A DNA stretch of 64,000 nucleotides from Gammaproteobacteria bacterium (GCA_009843635.1 VYDB01000015.1:6983-70982), one strand, 5' to 3'; positions 3,924-21,830 are shown, counted from the first letter of the stretch. Translations and numbers: made by a program. Notes: generated by a model not told the origin, from the letters alone.

Positions 3924-4697
3924 TCAGCGAATGGCGCCGGCCAACCTTTCCTCGGCTGAAAGGCGCCGTCTAAACCACAGGGGCACGGTGGTGCGTGCGT
4001 GCTCCAAGTCCTTGCGGTCGTCGATCTCGCACCAATCATGGCTGCCGGTGGTGACCACGCCGACATAGCCTTGGGCGGCCAGGGCGTCGATGGCGGACAG
4101 ATACCAGCGGCCCAGGGTGGACTCGACGGCCATCATGGACTCCAGCCGCTCCCGGAAAAGCCGGGGGCCGTCGCCTTGGAAGCGGATCATGCCGATGGAC
4201 TCGCCGTGCACTTCACTGGCGGGCAGCTTCTTGTCCACCTGCTTGAGTTCATTGCCGGAGACGATGACCTTCATGTCGTCATCGTCGTAGCTGTCCTTGA
4301 CGTTGGTGACCAAGGTGATGGGATGTTCGTCCGGGCTGTTGATGAGCCGCGCAAAGATCTCCGGTTCGAACAGGGTGTCGCCATTGACGATGACGAAGGG
4401 GTCGGTCATCTCATGGCGCACCACCCAGCAGGTGCCGAGATTGTCGCAATGGGCGTAGAAGGGATTGTGCGCCGTGCGCACGTCGAGCTTGGCGTAGCCG
4501 TCGATGAGCTGGCCGATGAGCCCGGCGCGAAAGCCCGTGGCCACCACCACTTCGGTGGCGCCGGCGGCGGCAAAGGCTTCCAACTGCCAGCCAAGCACGG
4601 TCCGTTCGCCGAGCATCAGGGCACACTTGGGCCGGTCCTCGGTTAACGGCAGCAGCCGCTTGCCTTGACCGGCCGATAGAACGATCACTTTCATCAC
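3924..4697 (-). CDS. Sugar/alcohol-phosphate nucleotidyltransferase (LicC-like)
   Basis: A 257-residue NTP transferase. The nucleotide-binding signature is intact (G10, G12, R14, PLT at 17-19, PK at 23-24), and an NGD metal/substrate motif sits at 105-107 (N-G-D). Closest recognisable type is the phosphocholine cytidylyltransferase/LicC or glucose-1-phosphate thymidylyltransferase group; it would make an activated CDP- or dTDP-alcohol or sugar. It is the last gene of a six-gene minus-strand operon and starts 1 base after the GMC oxidoreductase stop. The companion CDP-alcohol or glycosyl transferase that would use its product is not in the operon. Confidence 0.8.
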   Translation of the reverse strand: MMKVIVLSAGQGKRLLPLTEDRPKCALMLGERTVLGWQLEAFAAAGATEVVVATGFRAGLIGQLIDGYAKLDVRTAHNPFYAHCDNLGTCWVVRHEMTDPFVIVNGDTLFEPEIFARLINSPDEHPITLVTNVKDSYDDDDMKVIVSGNELKQVDKKLPASEVHGESIGMIRFQGDGPRLFRERLESMMAVESTLGRWYLSAIDALAAQGYVGVVTTGSHDWCEIDDRKDLEHARTTVPLWFRRRLSAEERLAGAIR

Positions 4698-4698
4698 G

Positions 4699-6321
4699 CT
4701 ATTTTACTTGATGATGGTCCGCAGTGCGCTGCGAAAGCAGGTGTGCCTTCAAGCGGTGCGCCAGGGCCAGGATGGTCAGGGTTGGGTTGGCCCAGCCGGC
4801 GGTGGGAAACACGGAACTGCCGAGGATGTAGAGGTCGGGATAGCCGTGCACTGCGCAATTGCGGTCCACCACCCCATTGGTCGGGCTGGCGCTCATGCGG
4901 GTGGTGCCTGCGTGGTGATAGCCGCCGATGGGATGGTTGCCCACGGTGCCGTCAACCGGCCAATCGAGGCCGGGTTCATCTAGCCAAGGCGACGGCTCCA
5001 ACGCGCCTAGGTCGAGGCGGAGCAGTTCGTCGTTCAGGGCTCCGGCCAATTCGCGCAGCGTGTGCTTGTCCTGTTCACCAAGCCGCCAATCGAGGTTCGC
5101 CTTGGGGCAGCCGAGTTCATCCTTCGCCGTGGACAGCACCACGCGGCTGGCCGGGTTGGGTGCCTGCTCGGCGCGGATCATGACGCTGAGTTGGAAGTCC
5201 TGCAGCTGCATCAGGCCTCGGGTGAGAAGGGGCCGCAGGGAACGGGCATAGGCGAACCGCAGCCCCCGGTAGGCGTGCCAAAGCTGACGGTTGCCGCGTC
5301 CGGGCGCGAGCTGGTGCTTCAGCGCTTGGTAGACCTGCCGGGCGCGGGGCACGCCCGCCGCTGGGTTGCGTTGCCACTTGAAGGTCAGGGCGGTGTTGAG
5401 AATGTCCCGTTCCCGCTGCAGGGCGGGTGTCGGCAACAGGACGGGTGCCACGGGAACGCTGCCCTGCGGGAAGCGCATGCGGAATGCGTTCCAGAGGCGA
5501 TAGGGTTTGCGGGTTCGGATGCGGCCCAGGCGTCCGTGGGGGTGTTCCATGAAGAAACGCCCCACTTGGTCGTGGCCGTTGCCGATGCCCAGCGGTTCAA
5601 CATCGTTCGAAGCCAGCAGCAGGCGGGCGTTTTCGATGCCGCCGCAGGCCAACACATAGGTGTTGGCCTTGATCTTGGCGGCCTGTCCGCCGGCATGGCC
5701 CACCAGCACATGGTCGAGGCCCGACCGATCGGGATGGGCTTGGATGCCCACCGCCGTGGCGTTGATGAGCGTCTCGATGTCCGGCGCCTTGAGGACGTCC
5801 TGGGTTCGCTTGGCATGAAAGCGCTCCCGCTGGGTGTCAAAGCGCCAGCAGCGGCTCATGAAACGATCAGCGTCCATGGACAGCGCGGCGGCGCCCCATT
5901 GGCCTTCCTCCTTGGCACCGCTGTCCGGTGCGTCGACCCCCAAGTCCCGATGGGCCGCGCTATAGCCTTCGGCCAGTTCGCCCCCGTCGATGGGCCAGCC
6001 GCTGTGCGCCACCCAGCCCCGCGCTTGAAAGTCGATGTCGTCCAAGGGGGCGCAGCGGCCGCCCCAGATGTTGGTGGTGCCGCCGAAAAACCGCAGGCGG
6101 CTGTCCTCGAGCGGATAGTAGGCAGCGCCGATGTTCTCGCCGACGCCGAGGGCGGCGCTTTCGGGCCCGTAGTCCAAGCCGCCGCTTTCCAGCAGCAGGA
6201 TGCGCAGGCCTTGGCCGCTCAGGCCCCTAGCGAGCGTGATTCCGGCGGCGCCGGCACCGATGATGCAGACATCGGCTTGCGCGGTGCGCGGTGCCCTGGC
6301 TTGGGCAAAGTCAGTCAGCAC
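4699..6321 (-). CDS. GMC-family FAD-dependent oxidoreductase
   Basis: A 540-residue flavoprotein of the glucose-methanol-choline family that would oxidise an alcohol group. The Rossmann FAD motif GAGAAG is at residues 22-27, followed by the ADP-binding acidic residue in LLLESGG; the second family motif (GGTTNIWGG) lies near residue 80. The C-terminal part has HHAGTTRMS and a final NPTLTILALA segment, which hold the catalytic His and Asn region. No signal peptide is seen, so it is cytosolic or membrane-peripheral. Its start overlaps the previous gene by 11 bases, so it is translationally coupled to the beta-hydroxylase-like gene. Confidence 0.88.
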   Translation of the reverse strand: MLTDFAQARAPRTAQADVCIIGAGAAGITLARGLSGQGLRILLLESGGLDYGPESAALGVGENIGAAYYPLEDSRLRFFGGTTNIWGGRCAPLDDIDFQARGWVAHSGWPIDGGELAEGYSAAHRDLGVDAPDSGAKEEGQWGAAALSMDADRFMSRCWRFDTQRERFHAKRTQDVLKAPDIETLINATAVGIQAHPDRSGLDHVLVGHAGGQAAKIKANTYVLACGGIENARLLLASNDVEPLGIGNGHDQVGRFFMEHPHGRLGRIRTRKPYRLWNAFRMRFPQGSVPVAPVLLPTPALQRERDILNTALTFKWQRNPAAGVPRARQVYQALKHQLAPGRGNRQLWHAYRGLRFAYARSLRPLLTRGLMQLQDFQLSVMIRAEQAPNPASRVVLSTAKDELGCPKANLDWRLGEQDKHTLRELAGALNDELLRLDLGALEPSPWLDEPGLDWPVDGTVGNHPIGGYHHAGTTRMSASPTNGVVDRNCAVHGYPDLYILGSSVFPTAGWANPTLTILALAHRLKAHLLSQRTADHHQVK

Positions 6322-7054
6322 CTTCCCGCAATCCTTGGTTCCAGCGCTTGATGTTGGCCAGCGGGCGCTTGACGTAGGCGGTGGCTCGAAACAGGCCCAG
6401 CACTAGGTTGCGGCAGTACTCCCCGGCGCGATCCAGGGGGCGTTCCAGGTCCAGGAACAGCACCACCCGGGATTCGGCGGTGTCGTTGCGCACTTCGTGC
6501 TCAAAGGTGTCGTCGAACAGCAGGCAGCGGCCGTCCTCCCAGTGACGGACTTGGTCGCCCACCCGAATCCAGCAGTCCGCCGCCTTGGCGGGAATCCGCA
6601 AGCCGAGGTGGCAGCGCACCAAGGCCTTGGTCGGTCCTCGATGGGGAGGAATGTGGTAGCCGGGGGCCAAGATCGAGAACCAGGCGTTCTGCACGCCTGG
6701 CAGGGCGTCGATGAGCGCGGCGGTGTTCGGGCAAGCGGCGCAGTTGTCGTCGATTTGGTGGCCGAACACGCGCATCACGAACGTTTTCCAATTGTCCCCC
6801 TTGGAGATGCGGACTTGGTCGGGCGACATCTCATGGAAGGTGGGTATGTCTTGGGGTTGGCGCATGATGGCGTCGAGTTCGGCGCGGATGGCGGCGGCTT
6901 CGGCCTCCAGTGTGGGCACCCAGGCAAAGGCGCTGCGGTCGATGAAGGGCGTGGTGGCGATGCGCGAATGGCGGGCGAGAAAGGCGTCCAAGGTGCGCAT
7001 GACCACCTTGCCCAAGCGGATGGCGAACCGTGGCTTGGGCGTGCCGTCTTTCAT
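6311..7054 (-). CDS. Aspartyl/asparaginyl beta-hydroxylase-domain protein (LpxO-like)
   Basis: Fe(II)/2-oxoglutarate dioxygenase, 247 residues from ATG 7054; an earlier in-frame start at 7087 would overlap the kinase gene. The AspH-type metal site is visible as H138 in HIPPHRG and H186 in FEHEV, with the conserved CHLGL between them. The family includes protein Asp hydroxylases and LpxO, which hydroxylates acyl chains of lipid A. In an operon with a lipid kinase and an acyltransferase, hydroxylation of a lipid acyl chain is the more likely job, but that is inference. Confidence 0.85.
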   Translation of the reverse strand: MKDGTPKPRFAIRLGKVVMRTLDAFLARHSRIATTPFIDRSAFAWVPTLEAEAAAIRAELDAIMRQPQDIPTFHEMSPDQVRISKGDNWKTFVMRVFGHQIDDNCAACPNTAALIDALPGVQNAWFSILAPGYHIPPHRGPTKALVRCHLGLRIPAKAADCWIRVGDQVRHWEDGRCLLFDDTFEHEVRNDTAESRVVLFLDLERPLDRAGEYCRNLVLGLFRATAYVKRPLANIKRWNQGLREGAD

Positions 7055-7071
7055 GCCGGCGCCTCGGTCGG

Positions 7072-7917
7072 TCACAGCGCCAGCCATCGCAAGGGTTCGC
7101 TCAGGGAAAGGCGCAAGGGGCCGCGGTTGTCGAACAGCTCGCCGTCGATGGTGTACGGGCCGTCGAGTTCGAATTCGAGGTTGGTGCGGTTGCCGCTGGA
7201 GTAGCCCGGCAGTCGCTCCAAGGACGCATCGCCCCTAAGCAGTCGCAAGCTGCGCCGCACCCGGCCTCGGGCCTCGGCAAACACCCAGGTGTTGTGCATT
7301 CCCTCGCCGTCCCCCCAGTAGGGACGGCAGCCGAAGAGCAGCCGGTCGAGTGACGTGGCGAGCATGGCGAACACCTGCCGGGTTTCACCGTTCCAGCGAA
7401 CTTCTTGAGGCTCGCTCGGGGCTAGGAGCCCTTTCGCCGAGTACCAAGCGGTGCGTATGGTCGTGCCCAACTGGCTGCCGGAGCGGGTACCGCTCCAGCG
7501 GGCGATCCCGGCGCTCACTGCGCCCAGCCCGAAGAACCAGCCGTATTTGTGGCCGTCCACCTGGTCCACTCGAATGAGCGGCCGAGCCGTGGCCGGAGGC
7601 AGGGTGCCGTCAACCATCGCTTCAAGCGCCTTGGCGCATTGCGTGAAGCGCCGATGGTGATTGAGGTCCGCTGCCGACATGTTGGTGCGCCCGGCGGGCA
7701 GCACAGCGATGGGCGGCAGGGTGCTGGCCGGCGATTGCTCAAGGGCCTCGGTCAGGGTGCGCTGCAGGGTGCCGTCGCCACCGGCAAGGACCAGCAGGCT
7801 GAAGCGGGACAGGTCTGGCAGCGGCCCCGAACCGAGCACGAACCGCTCCCCGCGAAAGGCGAGCTGGCGTTTGCCGAGGCCCGCCCGCGGGTTGGTTAAG
7901 AGGAGCGGGACTGGCAC
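7072..7917 (-). CDS. Diacylglycerol kinase-family lipid kinase
   Basis: A 281-residue DAGK-catalytic-domain protein with the diagnostic GGDGT at residues 46-50 and the later LPAGRTN segment near 73-79. It would phosphorylate a lipid hydroxyl such as that of diacylglycerol, ceramide or sphingosine. It overlaps the upstream nucleotidyltransferase gene by 22 bases. The usual N-terminal NPxxG is present as NPRAG (9-13). Family members include YegS and the Caulobacter ceramide kinase; sequence alone does not separate these. Confidence 0.87.
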   Translation of the reverse strand: MPVPLLLTNPRAGLGKRQLAFRGERFVLGSGPLPDLSRFSLLVLAGGDGTLQRTLTEALEQSPASTLPPIAVLPAGRTNMSAADLNHHRRFTQCAKALEAMVDGTLPPATARPLIRVDQVDGHKYGWFFGLGAVSAGIARWSGTRSGSQLGTTIRTAWYSAKGLLAPSEPQEVRWNGETRQVFAMLATSLDRLLFGCRPYWGDGEGMHNTWVFAEARGRVRRSLRLLRGDASLERLPGYSSGNRTNLEFELDGPYTIDGELFDNRGPLRLSLSEPLRWLAL

Positions 7918-8681
7918 TGCAGTGTCCGTTCTGCAACGGCGAGGTCGGCAGGGGAATCCACGTCGATGGCCGCCAAGGGGTCTTTAACCTCAACCCAGCC
8001 CAGGGTGCAGTCCATCAGCCGGGACAGCGCCGCCAAGGCGCGGTCGATGCTCAAGCGGCCGCAGGCGTAGGTGGCCAAGGTGCGCCAGCCCAAGTGCCGC
8101 ACGATTCGCCAAGGCCGCTTGCGGTTGGCCTGCACGCTGGCCCAGAAGGCGATGGCGTGAGCCGCCTTGGGGCCGTGGAGGTAGAAGAGATTGGTGCCGC
8201 AGTAGGCGCCACCAGCGAAGCGCAGCCGGGTGCGATTGAGGCCCGGAAAGCGTTCGGCGACCAAGCTATGGGGCGCAAGGCCCACCGTCAAATCGGCGCC
8301 TTGGGCGGCCGCCGCAGCGCAGAAGTCGTCAATGGTTGGTGCCGTCAGCAAGGCGTGGTCGCCGGTGGTCAACACAATGGGCCAGGTGTCGAGTTGCTGA
8401 ACGGCCTTAAGCGCGCTTTCGGCTGGCCCCGCCGCTGGCGCGGTCCACTCAAAGTCTCCGGCGGCAAGCAGCTCGGCGACGATGCCGTCGTGTTGGCCGT
8501 GCCGCTGTTCCGGGCCAGCCAGCAAGCCGCCGTCGATGGCCTCGGTGCTGCGGAGCGCACCCAATACCCGAACGAGCGCGGGAATCCCCGCCACCGGCGT
8601 CATGGGCGTGGGGCCCATTTCACCGTCTCGTTCACCGGACGGTTCCGTGGTGCGGGTTCCTGACAGTACGATTGCCTTCAT
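7896..8681 (-). CDS. Divergent MobA-like NTP transferase
   Basis: A 261-residue GT-A-fold nucleotidyltransferase. The N terminus (MKAIVLSG) and a TTGDHALLT segment (the metal-binding Asp) plus the C-terminal AIDVDSPADL fit the MobA/NTP_transf_3 family. However, the usual glycine-rich GxGxR loop after the first strand is replaced by GTRTTEP..., and the Lys of the xPKxL motif is missing, so nucleotide use may differ from classic MobA. The start ATG 8681 overlaps the stop of the GNAT gene by 4 bases (ATGA). It may activate a small head group for the lipid made by this operon; the substrate is unknown. Confidence 0.7.
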   Translation of the reverse strand: MKAIVLSGTRTTEPSGERDGEMGPTPMTPVAGIPALVRVLGALRSTEAIDGGLLAGPEQRHGQHDGIVAELLAAGDFEWTAPAAGPAESALKAVQQLDTWPIVLTTGDHALLTAPTIDDFCAAAAAQGADLTVGLAPHSLVAERFPGLNRTRLRFAGGAYCGTNLFYLHGPKAAHAIAFWASVQANRKRPWRIVRHLGWRTLATYACGRLSIDRALAALSRLMDCTLGWVEVKDPLAAIDVDSPADLAVAERTLQCQSRSS

Positions 8682-9811
8682 CGCTGCCCCAGGGATTTTT
8701 CGTAAACGGTGTAGCGCTTGCTGACCGCGCCGCCGATGCGCTCCATGATTGCCCGCATGCCGCTGTTGTCCTCCAGAATCCAGGAGGTTTCGCTGGTAAG
8801 AATGCCATGCCGAAGCCCCGCCTTGCCGGTTTTGTGGATGAGGCTCATCGCGACACCAGCGCCCAAGGGGCCCTCGTGCAGATGGCGGCGTACGCCCATC
8901 AACGGCACTCGCCCACTCGCGGGCAGCTTGACCTTCAGGCGCCACAGCAGCTTCAGCCAGCCCCAAGGCAGCAGACGACCGTTGAGGTCGGCAGTGGCTT
9001 CGTTGATGTTGGGCAGCATGACGATGAAGCCCACCGCTTCACTGTCGATTTCCGCCAGCCAGATTAGGTCGTTGGGCACCACCATCAGCAGCAGCCTGCC
9101 CAAGGCTTTGAATTCCCGTTCAGTGAACGGCACGAATCCCCAATTGCCCGACCAGGCGTCGTTGAATATGCTGCGCAGCCGCTCCAAATCCGCGGACTTT
9201 TGGGAGCGGTCAAAAGGGCGCAACCTGATGCGCCGTGCCAGTCGCTTGCGTTGCAGGGCTATTGCCCGCGGTTCGGGGTAGTCCGTGGCCGCCTCGTAGG
9301 CGAGCATGCGCTGGCAGGGCTGGTAGCCGAGGGCTTCGATGCGTTGGCAGTAATAGGGGCGGGCGTGGCCCATCATGATGTAGGGCGGGGTGTCGTAGCC
9401 TTCGGTGAGCAGCCCGATTTCCTGGTTGATGTTCAGGTTGATCGGGCCAATGATCCGCTGCATCCCCCGGTGGCGCAGCCAATCCTCGGCGGTCTCGAAC
9501 AGGGCATCGAAGAGGTCTTGGTCATCCTCGCCCTCGATCAGCCCAAAAAAGCCGGTCCCCTCGCCGTGTTGCGCCTGGTGCAAGGCATCGACCTGGGCGG
9601 TGATCCGGCCGACGGGCCGGCCGTTGCGCCGGGCGATCCAAGCCTGCCAATCCAGGTGGTCGAACACCGGCGATTTTGGGGAGAAGGCCATCAGGCGCTC
9701 CACCACCAAGGGCGGCCGCCAAGCGCCATCGTCCTTGTAGATGGGCCAAGGCACCTTGATGAACGCCTTGAGCAGGCGCTTGTTGGTCACCGGGACGATT
9801 TCTAGGGTCAA
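8678..9811 (-). CDS. GNAT-fold acyltransferase resembling bacterial ceramide synthase (bCerS/YghO family)
   Basis: A 377-residue protein made of a GNAT-like fold with long extensions. It has the segment GPINLNINQEIGLL followed by a DTPPYIMMGH block and a YY pair near residues 122-155, which is the hallmark, as I recall it, of the YghO-type family that contains Caulobacter bCerS (CCNA_01212), the enzyme that N-acylates the sphingoid base. It is often misnamed N-acetyltransferase or dATP pyrophosphohydrolase. TTG start at 9811 with GGAAG upstream. It is the first gene of the minus-strand lipid operon. No serine palmitoyltransferase gene is in this window, so its amine substrate is open. Confidence 0.72.
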   Translation of the reverse strand: MTLEIVPVTNKRLLKAFIKVPWPIYKDDGAWRPPLVVERLMAFSPKSPVFDHLDWQAWIARRNGRPVGRITAQVDALHQAQHGEGTGFFGLIEGEDDQDLFDALFETAEDWLRHRGMQRIIGPINLNINQEIGLLTEGYDTPPYIMMGHARPYYCQRIEALGYQPCQRMLAYEAATDYPEPRAIALQRKRLARRIRLRPFDRSQKSADLERLRSIFNDAWSGNWGFVPFTEREFKALGRLLLMVVPNDLIWLAEIDSEAVGFIVMLPNINEATADLNGRLLPWGWLKLLWRLKVKLPASGRVPLMGVRRHLHEGPLGAGVAMSLIHKTGKAGLRHGILTSETSWILEDNSGMRAIMERIGGAVSKRYTVYEKSLGQR

Positions 9812-9922
9812 GGTTCTTCCGTAACATCGCAGGCGCAGCGCATTCTACTCGGCTTGTGGGGCCTGCTCCCACTATCTGGGTTAAGCTAGGGGCTTCCTGG
9901 AAAGGGTTTGGGAGCGTGCCGG

Positions 9923-10813
9923 ATGACCCAGGCAGGGCATGCAAACATGGAGGTCACTCGGCTGGCCGGTGCCCTCGGCGCACAAGTGCGCGGCGTTGAT
10001 CTCGCCATGGCGGGCCCGGAACAGGCGGAGGCGATTCGCTCCCTGCTGCTTGAACACCTCGTGCTCTTCCTGCCTGGCCAGCGCATCACCGTCGATGAGC
10101 ACATCGCCTTCGGCCGTCACTTCGGCACCCTGGAGTCGCATCCCAACCTGAAGAACCCGTTCACGGATCGGGACGAACTCTTTGAACTCGCCGCCAGCCA
10201 CGGCGGCATCGCCGACGAGTGGCATACCGACCTGACCTTCCAGGAAAGGCCCGCGGTGATGTCGATACTGCACATGGTGAAGTGCCCGGAGACCGGCGGC
10301 GACACCCTATGGACCAGCCTTTACGCGGCTTTCGAGGAGCTGTCGCCTCCGATGCAGGATCTGTGCCTCGGCTTGACCGCCCTGCATGACGCAGCGCCCC
10401 ACAACCGACCGGACAGCATGATGGTGCATCCGGTGGTGCGGGAACACCCCGAAACCGGGCGCAAGGCGCTCTACGTCAACGAACACTTCACCCGGCGCAT
10501 CGTCGAGATGAGTGCCGGCGAAAGCGATGCGCTGCTGCGCTATCTCACCAATTGGGTGAAAAACCCGCGCTTCACCGTGCGCTACCGCTGGTCGGAGGGC
10601 ACCGTCGCGATCTGGGACAACCGCTGCACCCAGCACTTCGTGCTCAACGACTTCGACAGCGAGCGCATCATCCAACGGGTGACGGTGATAGGCGACCAGC
10701 CCCAAGGCGAGCCGCCGCGCTGGCCGCCTTGGCCGCGCCCGGAGCGGCTCTCCGCCGCCAGCCGCCACGACCGGCAGTTGTTCAGCTACCTGCGCCGGAA
10801 GGAGTCTGCGTAA
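9923..10813 (+). CDS. TauD/TfdA-family 2-oxoglutarate-dependent dioxygenase
   Basis: A 296-residue Fe(II)/2OG oxygenase. The metal triad is H101, D103 (WHTD) and H238 (TQH), and R252 is placed to bind 2-oxoglutarate. The N terminus (LAGALGAQVRGVDL) is typical for taurine/2,4-D dioxygenases and for alkylsulfatases such as AtsK. ATG 9923 or ATG 9947 could be the start. It is transcribed away from the lipid operon, and its 3' end overlaps the convergent glycosyltransferase gene by 32 bases. Substrate not predictable; a sulfonate, phenoxyacid or alkyl sulfate is typical. Confidence 0.88.
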   Translation: MTQAGHANMEVTRLAGALGAQVRGVDLAMAGPEQAEAIRSLLLEHLVLFLPGQRITVDEHIAFGRHFGTLESHPNLKNPFTDRDELFELAASHGGIADEWHTDLTFQERPAVMSILHMVKCPETGGDTLWTSLYAAFEELSPPMQDLCLGLTALHDAAPHNRPDSMMVHPVVREHPETGRKALYVNEHFTRRIVEMSAGESDALLRYLTNWVKNPRFTVRYRWSEGTVAIWDNRCTQHFVLNDFDSERIIQRVTVIGDQPQGEPPRWPPWPRPERLSAASRHDRQLFSYLRRKESA

Positions 10814-11924
10814 GGCTGGATGCCGTTTGCCGGCGATAGACGTAGAGGGATGACATCAGGAAATTGACTCCGCCGCCGAGGAAGAAGCCGCAGGTCAGCG
10901 CCAACAAGCGGTAGCGGTCGAAAAAGTCGGTCCAGCCGGTCAGGGCGAGGTAGGTGCCTAGGTTCACGCTGAGACCGGCTAGGCTGACGGCGACGAATTC
11001 GGCCCACTGCCGGGTCGGTGGGCGGTGCGGGTGTTCCCTGAAGGTGATGCGGCGATGCAGCGCCCAATTCCAGCTAGCGGCGGGCCAGAAGGATAGCGCC
11101 CGGGCCACTTGGTGATTGACGCCGGCCCACTGCAGGCCCAAGTAGAAAAGCACATCAACGAAGAAGCCACTGGCGCCGACGGCCGCAAACCAGAGCGCCC
11201 GCGCCCAGCCGCCGAAACGGTGCCGGTACAGGCGGTGCAGGTGCCGAGCGGTGTTGATCCACTGCCGGGCGTTCATCTTGCTGGTGCCCGTGGCGCGTTC
11301 CGAGAAGCCAATCGGCACTTCCTTGACCTGCAAGTCGCCACGCACCACGAGTTCCAAGGCGATCTTGTAGCCGATGGGCCGCAGTTGCTCTAAGTCGGGC
11401 AGGCGTCGGCGATCGGTGGCGAAGAAGCCGCTCATGGGGTCGGCGCAATGCGTGAGCGGCTGGGCCAGCAGGGTTGCCAAGCGGGAGGTCAGGAAGCGCC
11501 AAGGGCTCCAGGCGCGGTCCAGGGTGCCACCGGTGGCGTAGCGGCTGCCAAGCGCTAGATCGCAACCGTCTTCTTCCAACGCACGCAGCAGGTCGATGAT
11601 GCGTTCTGGAGGATGGGAGAGGTCGGCATCCATCACCACCAGGTGGTCGAACCGAGCGAGCCCGATGCCTTGCAGCACCGACAGTGAGAGGTCCCGGCTG
11701 GCCTCCCGGCGCACGGCCATGCGCACCGGCAGCCGCTTGGCCAGTTGCTGGGCGATGGCCTCGCTGCCGTCGTTGGAGTCGTCATCGACCAGCAGCAACT
11801 CCCAATTGATGCCGCTCTCCCCAAGCGCCTCGTTCAGGCGTTCAGCCAAGGCCGGAAGGTTCGCCGCCTCGCGAAACGTCGGCACCACGACGGACAGGGT
11901 GCGATGGGGGTGGGGGGTGCCCAC
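10782..11924 (-). CDS. GT2 glycosyltransferase fused to a GtrA-like membrane domain
   Basis: A 380-residue fusion. Residues ~8-235 are a dolichyl-phosphate-mannose synthase-like GT2 domain (VVVPTFREAANL, the LLVDDDSND nucleotide site, and MDADLSHPP with the DxD-like motif). Residues ~245-370 hold four hydrophobic helices of the GtrA type. Such fusions make a polyprenyl-phosphate sugar and probably help move it across the inner membrane for cell-surface glycosylation. The GTG start follows directly on the TAG of the aldo/keto reductase. No acceptor-specific transferase is adjacent. Confidence 0.87.
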   Translation of the reverse strand: MGTPHPHRTLSVVVPTFREAANLPALAERLNEALGESGINWELLLVDDDSNDGSEAIAQQLAKRLPVRMAVRREASRDLSLSVLQGIGLARFDHLVVMDADLSHPPERIIDLLRALEEDGCDLALGSRYATGGTLDRAWSPWRFLTSRLATLLAQPLTHCADPMSGFFATDRRRLPDLEQLRPIGYKIALELVVRGDLQVKEVPIGFSERATGTSKMNARQWINTARHLHRLYRHRFGGWARALWFAAVGASGFFVDVLFYLGLQWAGVNHQVARALSFWPAASWNWALHRRITFREHPHRPPTRQWAEFVAVSLAGLSVNLGTYLALTGWTDFFDRYRLLALTCGFFLGGGVNFLMSSLYVYRRQTASSLTQTPSGAGS

Positions 11925-12837: not shown

Positions 12838-13677
12838 CTACTTGATGTTGATCGCCTTGATGATGCCTTCGTTCATTGATCCGGAGCGGAAGGCGCCGAG
12901 GTCCAAGGCAACGAAGCGGTAACCGCAAGCCTGGACCTCGGCTTGCAGCGTATCGCGCAGTTCCAGCGCGCGCCCAAGCTCGTCGGCGCCAATCTCCAGG
13001 CGGGCCACGTCCTCGTGGTGGCGAACCCTGAATTCAACGAAGCCGAGCCGGGCCAGGCACTCCTCGGCCCGCTCCACTTGGGCAAGCCGTTCGGCGTTGA
13101 TCGACGCGCCGTAGGGGAAGCGGCTCGACAGGCAGGCGGACTGGGGTTTCGCGGCATTGTCGAGGCCAAGATGGGCGGCCAGGGCACGAACCCCGGCCTT
13201 GTCCACGCGGGCCTCCACCAAGGGCGAGCGGACGGCGAAGTCCTCGGCGGCGATGAGGCCCGGCCGATGGTCGCCAAGGTCGTCGGTGTTGGTGCCGTTG
13301 AGAATTTCGGCGAAGCCCTCTTGCCGGGCGATGTCCGCCAGCGCCGTGTACAGGGAGGTCTTGCAGTGGAAGCAGCGATTGACCGGGTTGGCGCGGTAAT
13401 CGGGTTTGCTGAGCTCGTCGGTGACGATCACCCGATGGCGCATGCCCCATTCCTCGGCCAGCCGTTTGGCTAGGCTCAAGTCGGAGCGCTTGAGGCTGGC
13501 GCTGCCGGACGTGACCGCCAAGGCCTTGGCGCCAAGCACCTCGGCGGCAAGAAAAGCGACCAAGGAACTGTCCACGCCGCCGGAGTAGGCGACCAAGGCG
13601 CTGTCCATCGCCCCCAGGCTGGCCCTAAGGGCATCGAGCTTGGCGGTGAGTTCGCCGGAAAGCGGTTGCGGTGCCAC
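12838..13677 (-). CDS. larE: LarE: ATP-dependent sulfur transferase of nickel-pincer cofactor synthesis
   Basis: A 279-residue PP-loop ATPase (SGGVDSS, residues 32-38) that adenylates and thiolates the pyridinium dicarboxylate mononucleotide intermediate of the nickel-pincer nucleotide. The conserved cysteine of ACLSSRFPYG is C182, and there is an extra CxxC pair, C102 and C105 (NRCFHC). Three cysteines in these positions fit the [4Fe-4S]-dependent LarE type described for Thermotoga, in contrast to the single sacrificial cysteine of Lactiplantibacillus LarE. The start is GTG 13677, 2 bases after the larB stop; a longer open frame upstream is a shadow of larB. Confidence 0.92.
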   Translation of the reverse strand: MAPQPLSGELTAKLDALRASLGAMDSALVAYSGGVDSSLVAFLAAEVLGAKALAVTSGSASLKRSDLSLAKRLAEEWGMRHRVIVTDELSKPDYRANPVNRCFHCKTSLYTALADIARQEGFAEILNGTNTDDLGDHRPGLIAAEDFAVRSPLVEARVDKAGVRALAAHLGLDNAAKPQSACLSSRFPYGASINAERLAQVERAEECLARLGFVEFRVRHHEDVARLEIGADELGRALELRDTLQAEVQACGYRFVALDLGAFRSGSMNEGIIKAINIK

Positions 13678-13679
13678 GA

Positions 13680-14432
13680 TCAAAGCCGATTGATCTTGTG
13701 GGCCAGGTAGCCGGCGCCGAAGCCGTTGTCGATGTTGACCACGGCGAGGCCCGCCGCGCAGCTCGACAGCATGCCCAGCAGGGCGGTGACGCCGCCGAAG
13801 GCAGCCCCGTAGCCCACGCTGGTGGGTACGCTGATGACCGGTGCCTCCACCAAGCCGCCGACCACGCTGGGCAAGGCGCCCTCCATGCCGGCCACGACGA
13901 TCACCACCCGCGCTTGGCGAATCTCGTCGAGCCGGGCCAGCAATCGGTGCAGGCCGGAGACTCCCACGTCGCGAATGCGCAGCACCGGGTTGCCGTAGAA
14001 GGCGGCGGTGACCGCCGCTTCCTCCGCCACCGGCGCATCCGATGTGCCGGCGGTGATGACCGCGATCAAGGTATCGGCACCGGCAGGCTCCTGAACGGTG
14101 GCGGTGATGGCCGATGCCGCTTCGTGATAGCGGGCGCATGCCGTGCGTTCAAGCACCTGCTCATAAGCCTCCGGGGTGGTTCGGGTGACCAGGGCGTTTT
14201 GTCCTGCCCCCACCAAGGCTTCGACCAAATCGGCGACCTCCGCCGCGCTCTTGCCCGCCCCGTAGATCACCTCCGAGGCGCCGGTGCGCGCCAAGCGGTC
14301 GCTATCGAGGGTCGAATGGCCGCCACTCGGTTGGCCAACATTCTGGTAGAAGGACGCACGAATCCGGTGGCTCGCCTCGTCAGCCTCGATCGCGCCGTCC
14401 TTGAAAGCGGCCAGAATGTCGTCCAGCGCCAT
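13680..14432 (-). CDS. larB: LarB: pyridinium-3,5-dicarboxylate mononucleotide synthase
   Basis: A 250-residue LarB protein that carboxylates and hydrolyses nicotinic acid adenine dinucleotide, the first step of nickel-pincer nucleotide synthesis. The PurE-like C-terminal half is clear (TAGTSDAPVAEEA, VAGMEGALPSVV, PTSVGYGA, NIDNGFGAGY). ATG 14432 lies 4 bases after the stop of the Fe-S aldo/keto reductase, so the two are co-transcribed. Neither the nickel insertase LarC nor the racemase LarA is in the window, although all three maturation proteins are needed in known pathways. Confidence 0.94.
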   Translation of the reverse strand: MALDDILAAFKDGAIEADEASHRIRASFYQNVGQPSGGHSTLDSDRLARTGASEVIYGAGKSAAEVADLVEALVGAGQNALVTRTTPEAYEQVLERTACARYHEAASAITATVQEPAGADTLIAVITAGTSDAPVAEEAAVTAAFYGNPVLRIRDVGVSGLHRLLARLDEIRQARVVIVVAGMEGALPSVVGGLVEAPVISVPTSVGYGAAFGGVTALLGMLSSCAAGLAVVNIDNGFGAGYLAHKINRL

Positions 14433-18576: not shown

Positions 18577-19638
18577 TTGGATCCGGTCTCCCAAGCGGCT
18601 CTTGGCGCGATTACCGCCCGCAGCGTAGCACCCGCGGACATGGCCAAGGGGGTGCTCATCGCCGGTGCTGCCCTGGGGGCCGCTCCGGACCTCGACGTGG
18701 TCTTCTCGATTGGCGGCGATTTCTTTGACACCCTAAAGCACCATAGGGGTGTCACCCACTCGCTCATCGTGCTGTTGGCGCTGGGCCCGCTGGCTGGCCA
18801 CTGGCTGTGGCGGCGCTTTGGCGATGGTCTGCGTTGGCGCCGACAACATCTCTGGTGGCTGGCGGTGGCCACGCTGGCGCTGCTGTCGCACCCGCTGTTG
18901 GACGGTTTGACGACCTATGGCACCCAGTGGCTGGCGCCGTTTTCCGATCGGCGCTTCGCGGTCAACGCCATGCCCATCATCGACCCGGTGTTCACCCTGA
19001 TTCTGCTCGGCGGATTGGCGGCGGGGATTTGGCTCAAGTCGCCGCGCCGCCGCAAGGCTTCGGCACTTGCCGCCTTGGCGCTGAGCTGCGCCTACCTCGC
19101 GTACGGATGGGCGCAAAACCGGGAAGCGGCGCAGTTTGCCGCCGCCCAACTGGAAACCGAGGGGGTGGTGGACTACGAACTAAGCGCCTTCCCCACGATT
19201 CTGCAGGTGCATTACCGGCGCATCGTGGTGCGCACGCCCAGCGAGGTGCGGGTCGGCTACTACTCCACTTGGTTGCCGTGCGCCATCCAATGGGGGCGGG
19301 CATCTCGGGCGGGCCCGGCGGCGGCTTCGGCGTTGGCGGCCACGGACGAAGGCCGCACCTTTGATTGGTTCACCATGGGCTGGAGCTTTCCCGTGGTGCA
19401 GCCATTGGCCAACGGCTTCCAGGTCACCTTGAACGATCTGCGATACGGCGCCACCTTGGACCCCGGGGAGAGCTTCTTCTCCATCGGCGCCCGCTTCGAT
19501 GCGGCTTGGCGGCTGCTTGCGCCGCCCACTGGGCGCGGCTTCAGCCCAGACCAGGACCGTCTTGACTTCAAGACCTTGTTCGACGCGGCCTATTTTTCGG
19601 AGTGCCCATCCGCTGCCGCGGAGTTCACTCCCACCTAG
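18577..19638 (+). CDS. YdjM-family membrane-bound metal-dependent hydrolase (DUF457)
   Basis: A 353-residue inner-membrane protein. The start is TTG, giving MDPVSQAALGA, which matches the common N terminus of this family; it follows the previous stop directly. A conserved HHRGVTHS near residue 49-56 and LSHPLLDGLTTYG near 105-117 hold the likely metal-binding His and Asp residues. About five hydrophobic segments occupy the N-terminal 180 residues, and the rest is soluble. E. coli YdjM is LexA-regulated; no SOS box is seen here. Confidence 0.82.
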   Translation: MDPVSQAALGAITARSVAPADMAKGVLIAGAALGAAPDLDVVFSIGGDFFDTLKHHRGVTHSLIVLLALGPLAGHWLWRRFGDGLRWRRQHLWWLAVATLALLSHPLLDGLTTYGTQWLAPFSDRRFAVNAMPIIDPVFTLILLGGLAAGIWLKSPRRRKASALAALALSCAYLAYGWAQNREAAQFAAAQLETEGVVDYELSAFPTILQVHYRRIVVRTPSEVRVGYYSTWLPCAIQWGRASRAGPAAASALAATDEGRTFDWFTMGWSFPVVQPLANGFQVTLNDLRYGATLDPGESFFSIGARFDAAWRLLAPPTGRGFSPDQDRLDFKTLFDAAYFSECPSAAAEFTPT

Positions 19639-19646
19639 CGGGATTG

Positions 19647-21830
19647 GTGGAATCCGTGAAAACGCCGTCCAAACCACCGCGTCGAGACCTCGTGTTGATC
19701 GGGGGTGGGCACAGCCACGTCCAGGCGCTCAAGTCGTTCGGCATGGCGCCCCTGGACGGGGTTCGAGTGACCGTGGTTGCCCGAGAGGTCCACACGCCCT
19801 ATTCGGGCATGCTGCCTGGATACGTCGCGGGGTTTTATGGCTGGGACGACATTCACATCGATCTCGGTCCCCTGTGCCGCTTTGGGGGCGCCCGTCTCAT
19901 CGATGATGAGGTGACGGCGCTCGATCTGGATGCTGGCCTAGTCCATTGCCTTCAGCGACCGCCCATTCGCTTTGACCTGCTGTCCATCAACTGCGGTGCG
20001 GCGCCGGAGGCACCGGTCGAGCTGGGCCATTGCGTCAAGCCCATTGGCCGCTTTCTGCCCGAGTGGGACAGCCTGCGCAACCGCATCCGCCCCAACGCCA
20101 AGCTGGTGCTGGTCGGTGGCGGTGCCGGCGGCCTCGAGTTGGCCTTGGCCGCCCGCCGAACCTTGCCGGAATCCATCGACATCAAGGTGGTTGCCGATGA
20201 GGTCCTGCCCGACCATGGCCGCATGCCAAGGAGGCTGCTCCTCGGCGAGTTGGCAAAGGCGAACATCGCCTTGGTTCGCGGCTTGGTCACGTCTGGGTCG
20301 CCGGACGCGCTGCGCCTGCAGGACGGCGTGGAGCTGGCGTTCGATCACCTGTTTTGGGTGACGGGCGTCCAAGCACCGCCTTGGATTCGCGACAGCGGGC
20401 TGGCCACTGACGGCAAGGGCTTCATCCGCGTGAATGCCAACCTGCGTTCCGTTTCCCATGAACGGGTTTACGCCGCCGGGGACATTGCCCACTTCGAAAG
20501 CGGGGCTCGCCCCAAGTCAGGTGTTTACGCGGTGCGCGCCGGTCCTGCGCTGGCGGGTAATTTGCGCCGTGTCCTGGAGGGCCGTTCGGCGCGGCCCTAT
20601 CGGCCCCAGCGCCGCGCCTTGAGCCTGATCGGCACCGGCGATGGCCGAGCGGTGGCTTCGAGAGGCGCCTTGGCCGTTTCCGGGCGCTGGGCTTGGCATT
20701 GGAAGCAGTGGATTGATCGGCGCTTCATGCAGCGCTACCAGGAATTGCCGGCCATGGATGAGGCGGCGCCGGAGGATGGTGATGAACTGGACGCCATGCG
20801 CTGCGGCGGCTGCGGCGCCAAGATCGGGGCCGGCGTGCTCAACCGGGCGCTGTCGCGGCTGCCGGCTCAATCGGGCACCCATCTGCTGCAGGGCATCGGC
20901 GATGACGCGGCCCTGCTGGCGCCCAATCCGGCCCCCTTGGCGTTGACCATCGACGGTTTTCGCAGCCTAGTGGACGATCCTTACCGGTTCGGGCGCCTAA
21001 CCGCCCATCACTGCCTGAACGACATCTACGCCATGGGTGCGGTGCCGACCAGCGCCATGGCCTTGGCCACGGTGCCGCTGATGTCGGAGGCGTTGATGGA
21101 GGATGAGCTGCACCAAATGCTGCTCGGCGCGGTTGAGGTGTTGAACGCCGACGCCGTGCCGCTGGTGGGCGGCCATTCCGCCGAAGGCGCTGAGTTGTCG
21201 TTGGGCTTGGCGATCAGCGGCGCCGCGGTCGATCCGCCACTGACCAAGGGGGGTGCGCAGCCCGGCGATCGGCTGATCCTCACCAAGCCTTTGGGAAGCG
21301 GTGTGCTGCTTGCCGCGCACATGCGTGGCCTCGCGCCCACCGCCCTGGTCCAGGACGCATTGCGCCGCCTCGACCGCTCGAATGCCGAATCGCTTGCCGT
21401 GCTGCGCCGGCACGGCGTTCGCGCCGCCACCGACGTCACCGGCTTCGGCCTGATCGGGCACTTGGCGGAAATGCTGGACGCCAGCGGGTTGGGCGCAACG
21501 CTTTGGTTGGACGGTCTGCCCGCCTTGGAGGGGTCAATGGGTGCTTTCGAGCGTGGCGCCGCCAGCGTGCTGCAGCCCGACAACGAGCGCGCTCTGTCCC
21601 AGTTTGAACTGCGCGGCTGCCTGCCGGCGGATCCGGCCGTGCAGCTATTGGCCGACCCGCAAACCGCCGGTGGCCTGCTGGCCTGCGTCCCTGAAGCGGA
21701 GGCACCGGCTTGCTTGGAAGCCCTGGGCAACGCCGGATACGCCGACAGCGCCTGCATCGGTGTCATGACCGAGGGCGGACGCCAAATCACTCAAGCTGCG
21801 CCCCAATTCGAAGTCGCTGGCGATCCGTGA
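19647..21830 (+). CDS. selD: Pyridine nucleotide-disulfide oxidoreductase fused to selenide, water dikinase (SelD)
   Basis: About 727 residues. The N-terminal ~350 residues form an NDH-2-like FAD oxidoreductase (GGGHSH near the start, the second GGGAGG near residue 155, and AAGDIAHF). The C-terminal ~350 residues are SelD, which makes selenophosphate from selenide and ATP; C389 in GGCGAKI corresponds to the catalytic Cys17, the Lys after it is kept, but the second Cys is Ala. GDD (ATP site) and TDVTGFG follow. The start may be TTG 19644, GTG 19647 or GTG 19656. The usual partner selU/mnmH, or selA/selB/selC, is not in the window. Confidence 0.92.
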   Translation: MESVKTPSKPPRRDLVLIGGGHSHVQALKSFGMAPLDGVRVTVVAREVHTPYSGMLPGYVAGFYGWDDIHIDLGPLCRFGGARLIDDEVTALDLDAGLVHCLQRPPIRFDLLSINCGAAPEAPVELGHCVKPIGRFLPEWDSLRNRIRPNAKLVLVGGGAGGLELALAARRTLPESIDIKVVADEVLPDHGRMPRRLLLGELAKANIALVRGLVTSGSPDALRLQDGVELAFDHLFWVTGVQAPPWIRDSGLATDGKGFIRVNANLRSVSHERVYAAGDIAHFESGARPKSGVYAVRAGPALAGNLRRVLEGRSARPYRPQRRALSLIGTGDGRAVASRGALAVSGRWAWHWKQWIDRRFMQRYQELPAMDEAAPEDGDELDAMRCGGCGAKIGAGVLNRALSRLPAQSGTHLLQGIGDDAALLAPNPAPLALTIDGFRSLVDDPYRFGRLTAHHCLNDIYAMGAVPTSAMALATVPLMSEALMEDELHQMLLGAVEVLNADAVPLVGGHSAEGAELSLGLAISGAAVDPPLTKGGAQPGDRLILTKPLGSGVLLAAHMRGLAPTALVQDALRRLDRSNAESLAVLRRHGVRAATDVTGFGLIGHLAEMLDASGLGATLWLDGLPALEGSMGAFERGAASVLQPDNERALSQFELRGCLPADPAVQLLADPQTAGGLLACVPEAEAPACLEALGNAGYADSACIGVMTEGGRQITQAAPQFEVAGDP

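Follow-up and report, generated by a model that had tools for sequence, protein, structure and literature searches.

A probable ceramide-phosphoglycerate operon with a GMC-family oxidoreductase beside a predicted CDP-glycerate synthase gene

Introduction

Which lipid would be made by an operon that is headed by a ceramide-synthase-like acyltransferase and also encodes two nucleotidyltransferases, a lipid kinase, a hydroxylase and a flavoprotein oxidoreductase of the GMC family? Such an operon lies at positions 3924-9811 of a stretch of 64,000 nucleotides from a Gammaproteobacteria bacterium (GCA_009843635.1, VYDB01000015.1:6983-70982), referred to here as the window. An earlier note on this DNA proposed a lipid operon whose product might be a new phospho-lipid. 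We find that the operon is very probably the ceramide synthase and head-group section of a pathway of the ceramide phosphoglycerate (CPG) or ceramide diphosphoglycerate (CPG2) type, so that the lipid most likely belongs to this known class and is not wholly new. The GMC oxidoreductase is a genuinely new component, in that it lies outside any published sphingolipid cluster that we found.

In Caulobacter, ceramide (di)phosphoglycerate supports viability without lipopolysaccharide and is required for polymyxin sensitivity; the steps past ceramide-1-phosphate are still unsettled (PMC11324152, PMC12275187). The ceramide synthase gene, cerS (CC_1154), is followed there by CC_1153, a CofC-like nucleotidyltransferase that CPG2 formation needs, and by CC_1152, which encodes CpgD (PMC11324152, PMC12275187), the enzyme that makes CDP-glycerate (PMC12275187). 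CpgB (CC_1160) is a ceramide kinase (PMC10331486). Forms of CPG and CPG2 that carry an acyl hydroxyl are found alongside forms that do not. The hydroxyl on the amide-linked chain has been assigned to the DesA-type protein CC_0202 (CCNA_00202) (PMC11324152).

Results

The first gene and the conservation of the operon

The 377-residue product of the first gene (P0001) matches the GNAT model PF00583 weakly (23.1 bits against a cut-off of 20.7 in Pfam). It is 45% identical over 375 residues to the CerS of Caulobacter sp. RHG1 and 49% identical to E. coli YghO, and in a tree of 95 sequences it falls within the CerS clade, together with the Caulobacter protein (L202) and YghO; remote matches at 22-27% identity (L014-L019) stand far outside that clade. 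We infer that the first gene encodes a bacterial ceramide synthase, predicted to acylate a sphingoid base, and the tree bears out the family proposed for it earlier. The search for relatives in the PDB found none. FemAB_like (PF04339) was rejected as the family of this gene, the single match in the genome being another locus. YghO, which PMC9386255 lists in the role of ceramide acyltransferase for the E. coli sphingolipid cluster, was likewise ruled out as a contrast family to the bacterial ceramide synthases since it nests inside their clade. For the E. coli K-12 gene (L260:7044-8216), RefSeq gives a putative DNA-binding transcriptional regulator, an annotation that looks wrong given the identity of YghO to the window CerS and its place in the tree.

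Six open reading frames were confirmed, all on the minus strand and transcribed from 9811 to 3924. The cerS and MobA-like genes share a 4-base overlap (ATGA), the MobA-like and kinase genes overlap by 22 bases, the kinase and hydroxylase genes by 16 and the hydroxylase and GMC genes by 11, and a 1-base gap separates the GMC gene from the LicC-like one. The packing described earlier was thus accurate, and junctions of this kind imply one transcript and coupled translation. All six family calls of the earlier note also held in Pfam.

The exact six-gene order, on one strand, was found at 11 loci in other genomes (L105-L110, L113, L116, L118, L126 and L135), across which CerS identity falls to about 51%. 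Recurrence of this order goes beyond what chance would produce. G281, G134 and L111 have five of the genes in this arrangement, the hydroxylase gene being the one that is missing. Lysobacterales and relatives keep the CerS, MobA, CpgD, Lpt and CpgA/C genes, with an inverted GMC gene lying between CpgD and MobA-CerS. These variants indicate that the order is modular and does not vary freely. The closest relatives by sequence are metagenome-assembled genomes of Gammaproteobacteria, including Candidatus Azophilus lithoversatilis.

The two nucleotidyltransferases

The last gene encodes a protein (P0006) that matches NTP_transf_3 (E 1.6e-12, Pfam) and is 48% identical over 246 residues to the CpgD of Caulobacter sp. 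RHG1. Crystal structures of CpgD define the residues that contact CTP and glycerate (PMC13228409). In our alignment, R14, K24, N86, T89, N105, D107, M142, K156, S167 and W198 of P0006 correspond to R16, K26, N90, T93, N110, D112, M147, K161, S170 and W201 of CpgD; CpgD T88, whose contact is made via the backbone, is replaced by C84. As the PDB search did not return CpgD, the RHG1 orthologue served for this comparison; it appears to be one residue longer than C. crescentus CpgD over residues 112-147, where four identities fit when shifted by one. P0006 is accordingly annotated here as CpgD, a predicted CDP-glycerate synthase.

A HIT-domain protein (L211:15428-15910 in Caulobacter sp. RHG1; also L069:765-1196) occupies the position equivalent to that of CC_1157, which has been called probably unrelated (PMC11324152). 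It is kept beside CpgD or in sphingolipid clusters in Gamma- and Alphaproteobacteria, and may belong to the pathway, for example by acting on CDP-linked intermediates.

The MobA-like gene starts at the ATG at 8681 and not at the start of a longer reading frame that had been listed. Its product matches NTP_transf_3 with 29.2 bits (Pfam) and is 35% identical over 249 residues to the product of the gene adjoining cerS in Caulobacter sp. RHG1. The predicted model has a predicted local distance difference test score (pLDDT) of 86, and its best PDB fold match is 2dpw, followed by GlmU and IspD. A phosphoglycerate-type activation is the predicted role. The two nucleotidyltransferases had been thought to lack counterparts in Caulobacter. 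Their orthologues in that organism are CC_1153 and CC_1152/CpgD, encoded beside cerS and required to make ceramide diphosphoglycerate (PMC11324152, PMC12275187); therefore, the contrast falls.

The kinase and the hydroxylase

The lipid kinase (P0003) scores 38.1 bits with DAGK_cat (Pfam) and carries GGDG at residues 46-49. It is 30% identical over 260 residues (E 1e-15) to the CpgB orthologue of Caulobacter sp. RHG1, and 33% identical over 234 residues to a kinase encoded next to cpgC in a genome of the same order. These similarities suggest a CpgB-like protein, predicted to be a ceramide kinase.

The fourth gene product (P0004) is a clear member of the Asp_Arg_Hydrox family (E 4.9e-52, Pfam), in which both iron-ligand histidine motifs, PPHRG and FEHE, are intact. 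Its best NCBIfam match is OlsC (206.8 bits, below the equivalog cut-off of 450), in line with the acyl-hydroxylase likeness noted earlier; the LpxO model gives 121.9 bits, below its equivalog cut-off of 500. On balance, we favour 2-hydroxylation of the ceramide N-acyl chain as its reaction.

The remaining pathway genes

The window is part of one contig (C129) of a genome of 4.49 Mb in 152 contigs. A search of this genome for spt, acp and cerR found all three, with aasR, on contig C109. The NCBIfam model for serine palmitoyltransferase (SPT) has exactly one match in the genome (565.9 bits against a cut-off of 500). Four genes of that contig, all on the same strand, encode in turn AasR, which resembles fatty-acyl-AMP ligases; CerR, a reductase of the epimerase type; AcpR, which is acyl-carrier-like and 78 residues long; and SPT. 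The CerR frame is open through the Rossmann motif TGLTGFVG, although a short stretch of N letters comes immediately before it. The absence of SPT, its acyl carrier and the reductase reported in the earlier note is thus true of the operon and not of the genome. Since these four genes are present, the amine would be supplied to the operon from elsewhere in the genome, as that note had allowed; an SPT-independent lipid, considered as a candidate, was rejected on the same ground.

Contig C93 encodes LptF2, LptG2, an LptA-like protein, a CC_1158-like metallophosphoesterase, a CpgA-like CDP-alcohol phosphotransferase, a CpgC-like (Tam41-like) nucleotidyltransferase and a Wzx-like flippase. The LptF2/LptG2 set was assigned by synteny and similarity, as a putative second one for export. 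CpgA is 42% identical to its Caulobacter sp. RHG1 orthologue. G134, a genome of the same family, has a single contiguous cluster that unites the window cassette, except for the hydroxylase, with all of the pathway genes of C109 and C93; the CpgA and CpgC of this cluster are 50% and 44% identical to the C93 proteins. At the Caulobacter sp. RHG1 locus, the orthologues follow one another as published for CC_1152-CC_1161.

On C109, the end of spt shares 4 bases with a gene (L065:5398-8046) whose phosphotransferase-like product of 882 residues has PPDK_N and PEP-utilizer domains. A partial homologue adjoins a cpgB-cpgC pair in L094.

The GMC oxidoreductase

The GMC protein matches GMC_oxred_C (E 1.6e-20, 74.5 bits against a cut-off of 24.6 in Pfam), and its catalytic pair, His469 and Asn512, is invariant in 26 homologues. 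It scores far below the equivalog or subfamily cut-offs for pyranose oxidase, MftG, choline dehydrogenase and cholesterol oxidase, and no signal peptide was evident by eye. Its predicted model has a mean pLDDT of 84.8. By profile and fold, the closest solved relatives are the flavin adenine dinucleotide (FAD)-dependent glucose and fructose dehydrogenases, with pyranose oxidases next; at about 19% identity and a TM-score of about 0.6, this likeness extends to the general fold only.

Pathway genes lie near a close GMC homologue at 40 loci (39 distinct, L022 and L114 being the same), and CpgD is within the flank in 38. The GMC gene usually adjoins CpgD directly, and does so in four relative arrangements. 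Homologues of at least 42% identity form a clade of 83 sequences with 99% support, apart from paralogues at 33-39%. CerS is present in 30 of the 33 genomes tested from this clade (12/12 and 18/21), compared with 41 of 399 in a phylum sample; the Fisher p of about 2e-23 overstates the association since the genomes are related. No conserved GMC neighbourhood was seen in Caulobacter, Phenylobacterium, Solimonas or Magnetospirillum. Within Caulobacter, the gene was seen only in Caulobacter sp. RHG1 and in another metagenome-assembled genome of the genus, and it is not claimed for C. crescentus. A literature search for 'GMC oxidoreductase' with 'bacterial sphingolipid' found no paper.

Features of the operon, in order of transcription, with window coordinates
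Feature	Coordinates	Strand	Basis
cerS, bacterial ceramide synthase (GNAT-fold N-acyltransferase), predicted	8678..9811	-	TTG start; orthologue of Caulobacter CC_1154 and E. coli YghO
CC_1153 orthologue, MobA/CofC-like nucleotidyltransferase	7896..8681	-	NTP_transf_3; directly after cerS in relatives
cpgB-like ceramide (lipid) kinase, predicted	7072..7917	-	DAGK_cat; GGDG motif
AspH/LpxO/OlsC-type Fe(II)/2-oxoglutarate hydroxylase	6311..7087	-	Asp_Arg_Hydrox; iron-ligand motifs
GMC-family FAD oxidoreductase	4699..6321	-	GMC_oxred_C; catalytic His/Asn
cpgD, CTP:phosphoglycerate cytidylyltransferase (to CDP-glycerate), LicC fold, predicted	3924..4697	-	orthology and contact residues

Neighbouring genes

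Upstream of the operon (9908-11924) lie a gene for a TauD-type dioxygenase (divergent) and a GT2/GtrA glycosyltransferase gene. Both are retained near the operon in the close relatives L107 and L108, L105 has the TauD gene, and more distant relatives have neither nearby. Further along, the frame listed at 12838-14139 encodes a LarE-type sulfur transferase, which scores 296.6 bits (cut-off 150); nothing matches its first 166 or so residues, which are probably an extension read from a wrong start. At 19602-21830, a 742-residue protein combines, by eye, an NADH-dehydrogenase-like flavoprotein part and a SelD-like part.

Discussion

The proposed pathway

Gene identity, order, co-occurrence and active-site residues can be read from the sequence, and homology suggests the following course for the pathway. 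AasR would load AcpR with a fatty acid, SPT would condense it with serine and CerR would reduce the ketone. The window CerS would then N-acylate the base, although CerS may act before CerR, a sequence of steps that has been proposed for Caulobacter. The CpgB-like kinase would give ceramide-1-phosphate, after which CpgC and the CC_1153-type nucleotidyltransferase would activate the intermediates through which a first phosphoglycerate is added. Finally, CpgD would make CDP-glycerate, and CpgA would use it to add the second phosphoglycerate. Two decorations may accompany these steps: the OlsC/LpxO-type hydroxylase would place a hydroxyl on the N-acyl chain, and the GMC flavoprotein would oxidise a primary alcohol of the head group, either converting glycerol to glycerate or acting on the CH2OH that is free in glycerate.

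Several observations weigh against this picture. A close GMC homologue was found in only 3 of 12 genomes with a close CerS in an order sample, and in 4 of the 41 CerS genomes of the phylum sample (E<=1e-60); these absences are soft, since for each genome the sample searches scored only the few best candidates. Some genomes that lack CerS have GMC relatives, at 33-39% identity. The paper that describes the 17-gene Caulobacter cluster mentions neither 'GMC' nor 'oxidoreductase' (PMC11324152), in agreement with the earlier note, which knew no counterpart of the alcohol oxidase there. The hydroxylase gene is absent from the Lysobacterales loci and from the G134 and G281 cassettes. In addition, CpgB also phosphorylates diacylglycerol in vitro (PMC10331486), and the window kinase could act on diacylglycerol too. 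Since most CerS genomes have no close GMC homologue, the GMC protein is an accessory and not a core step of the pathway.

The substrate of the GMC oxidoreductase

Our best guess, a tentative one, is that the GMC protein oxidises an alcohol of the head group, which we favour because of its steady adjacency to CpgD and its sugar-oxidising relatives. Whether this would amount to an unrecognised step of phosphosphingolipid synthesis, from ceramide phosphoglycerol to ceramide phosphoglycerate or to a CPG/CPG2 head group that is further oxidised, extra acidic or aldehyde-bearing, is more doubtful, and we regard it as possible but somewhat unlikely. If true, such a step would have a bearing on the origin of the first phosphoglycerate of CPG, a question that the literature has not settled.

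The protein might instead act on the ceramide or its sphingoid base, for example at the C-3 hydroxyl or at a hydroxyl made by the AspH-type enzyme. Lipids are substrates for some GMC enzymes, cholesterol oxidase being an example, and the GMC gene directly follows the hydroxylase gene in the window and in the 11 matching loci. However, it still adjoins CpgD at loci that lack the hydroxylase, a tie to CDP-glycerate chemistry; the nearest relatives with solved structures are sugar-oxidising enzymes; and the CerR reductase of this genome runs in the opposite direction at C-3. We therefore consider a ceramide substrate unlikely. The adjacency to CpgD in differing arrangements would also suit an enzyme that supplies a soluble precursor to CpgD, such as a derivative of glycerate or glyceraldehyde, and a possible dedicated source of phosphoglycerate has been suggested by the authors of the CpgD study (PMC12275187). 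Phosphoglycerate is, however, a glycolytic intermediate for which a special source is needless, and no glycerate kinase was found in the cassette, making such a supply decidedly unlikely.

Two alternatives concern the lipid as a whole. LicC (1jyk) is the best PDB sequence match of P0006 (E 8.6e-11, spanning residues 2-111 only), as would be seen if the last gene encoded a LicC-type phosphocholine or other cytidylyltransferase and the head group were not glycerate; its orthology to Caulobacter CpgD along most of its length and the conserved CTP and glycerate contacts make this very improbable. The location of spt, acpR and cerR outside the operon could hint at a different phospholipid built on a non-sphingoid amine, but this has hardly any likelihood, as all three are in the same genome and share a cluster with the operon genes in relatives, and cerS of Caulobacter is likewise in an operon separate from aasR-cerR-acpR-spt (PMC11324152).

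Comparison with known systems

The CPG-type operon can be set against several known systems. The E. coli yghO cluster (ECD_02850-ECD_02854, PMC9386255) shares with it a ceramide synthase of the same clade; in the stretch of E. coli K-12 examined, yghO has only yghQ-yghS as neighbours, and a kinase, GMC protein or hydroxylase is not annotated there. With the FAD glucose and fructose dehydrogenases, the GMC protein has the catalytic His/Asn pair in common, whereas the window operon is without cytochrome or small-subunit genes. The hydroxylase shares family and iron motifs with OlsC, which acts on ornithine lipids, and LpxO, which acts on lipid A, both of them hydroxylases of lipid acyl chains, but it falls below both cut-offs and sits in a ceramide operon. 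It probably replaces CC_0202 of Caulobacter, which has the same proposed job and belongs to the unrelated DesA desaturase/hydroxylase family. An AspH-type enzyme would thus represent a second, apparently non-homologous route to hydroxylation of the ceramide acyl chain.

The closest parallel is the CC_1152-CC_1168 (CPG2) cluster of Caulobacter. The window operon has orthologues of cerS, CC_1153 and cpgD together with the cpgB-like kinase, and spt, acpR, cerR, aasR, cpgA, cpgC, a CC_1158-like gene, lptF2/G2 and a flippase are matched elsewhere in the genome. In contrast to Caulobacter, these genes lie on three or more separate contigs, cpgD in the window has no HIT protein (CC_1157) beside it, and the cassette adds the GMC oxidoreductase and the AspH-type hydroxylase. 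In Gamma- and Alphaproteobacteria, the GMC gene has kept its place next to CpgD while the gene order changed several times, yet it lies outside the published gene set; its product is a concrete candidate for a new head-group reaction.

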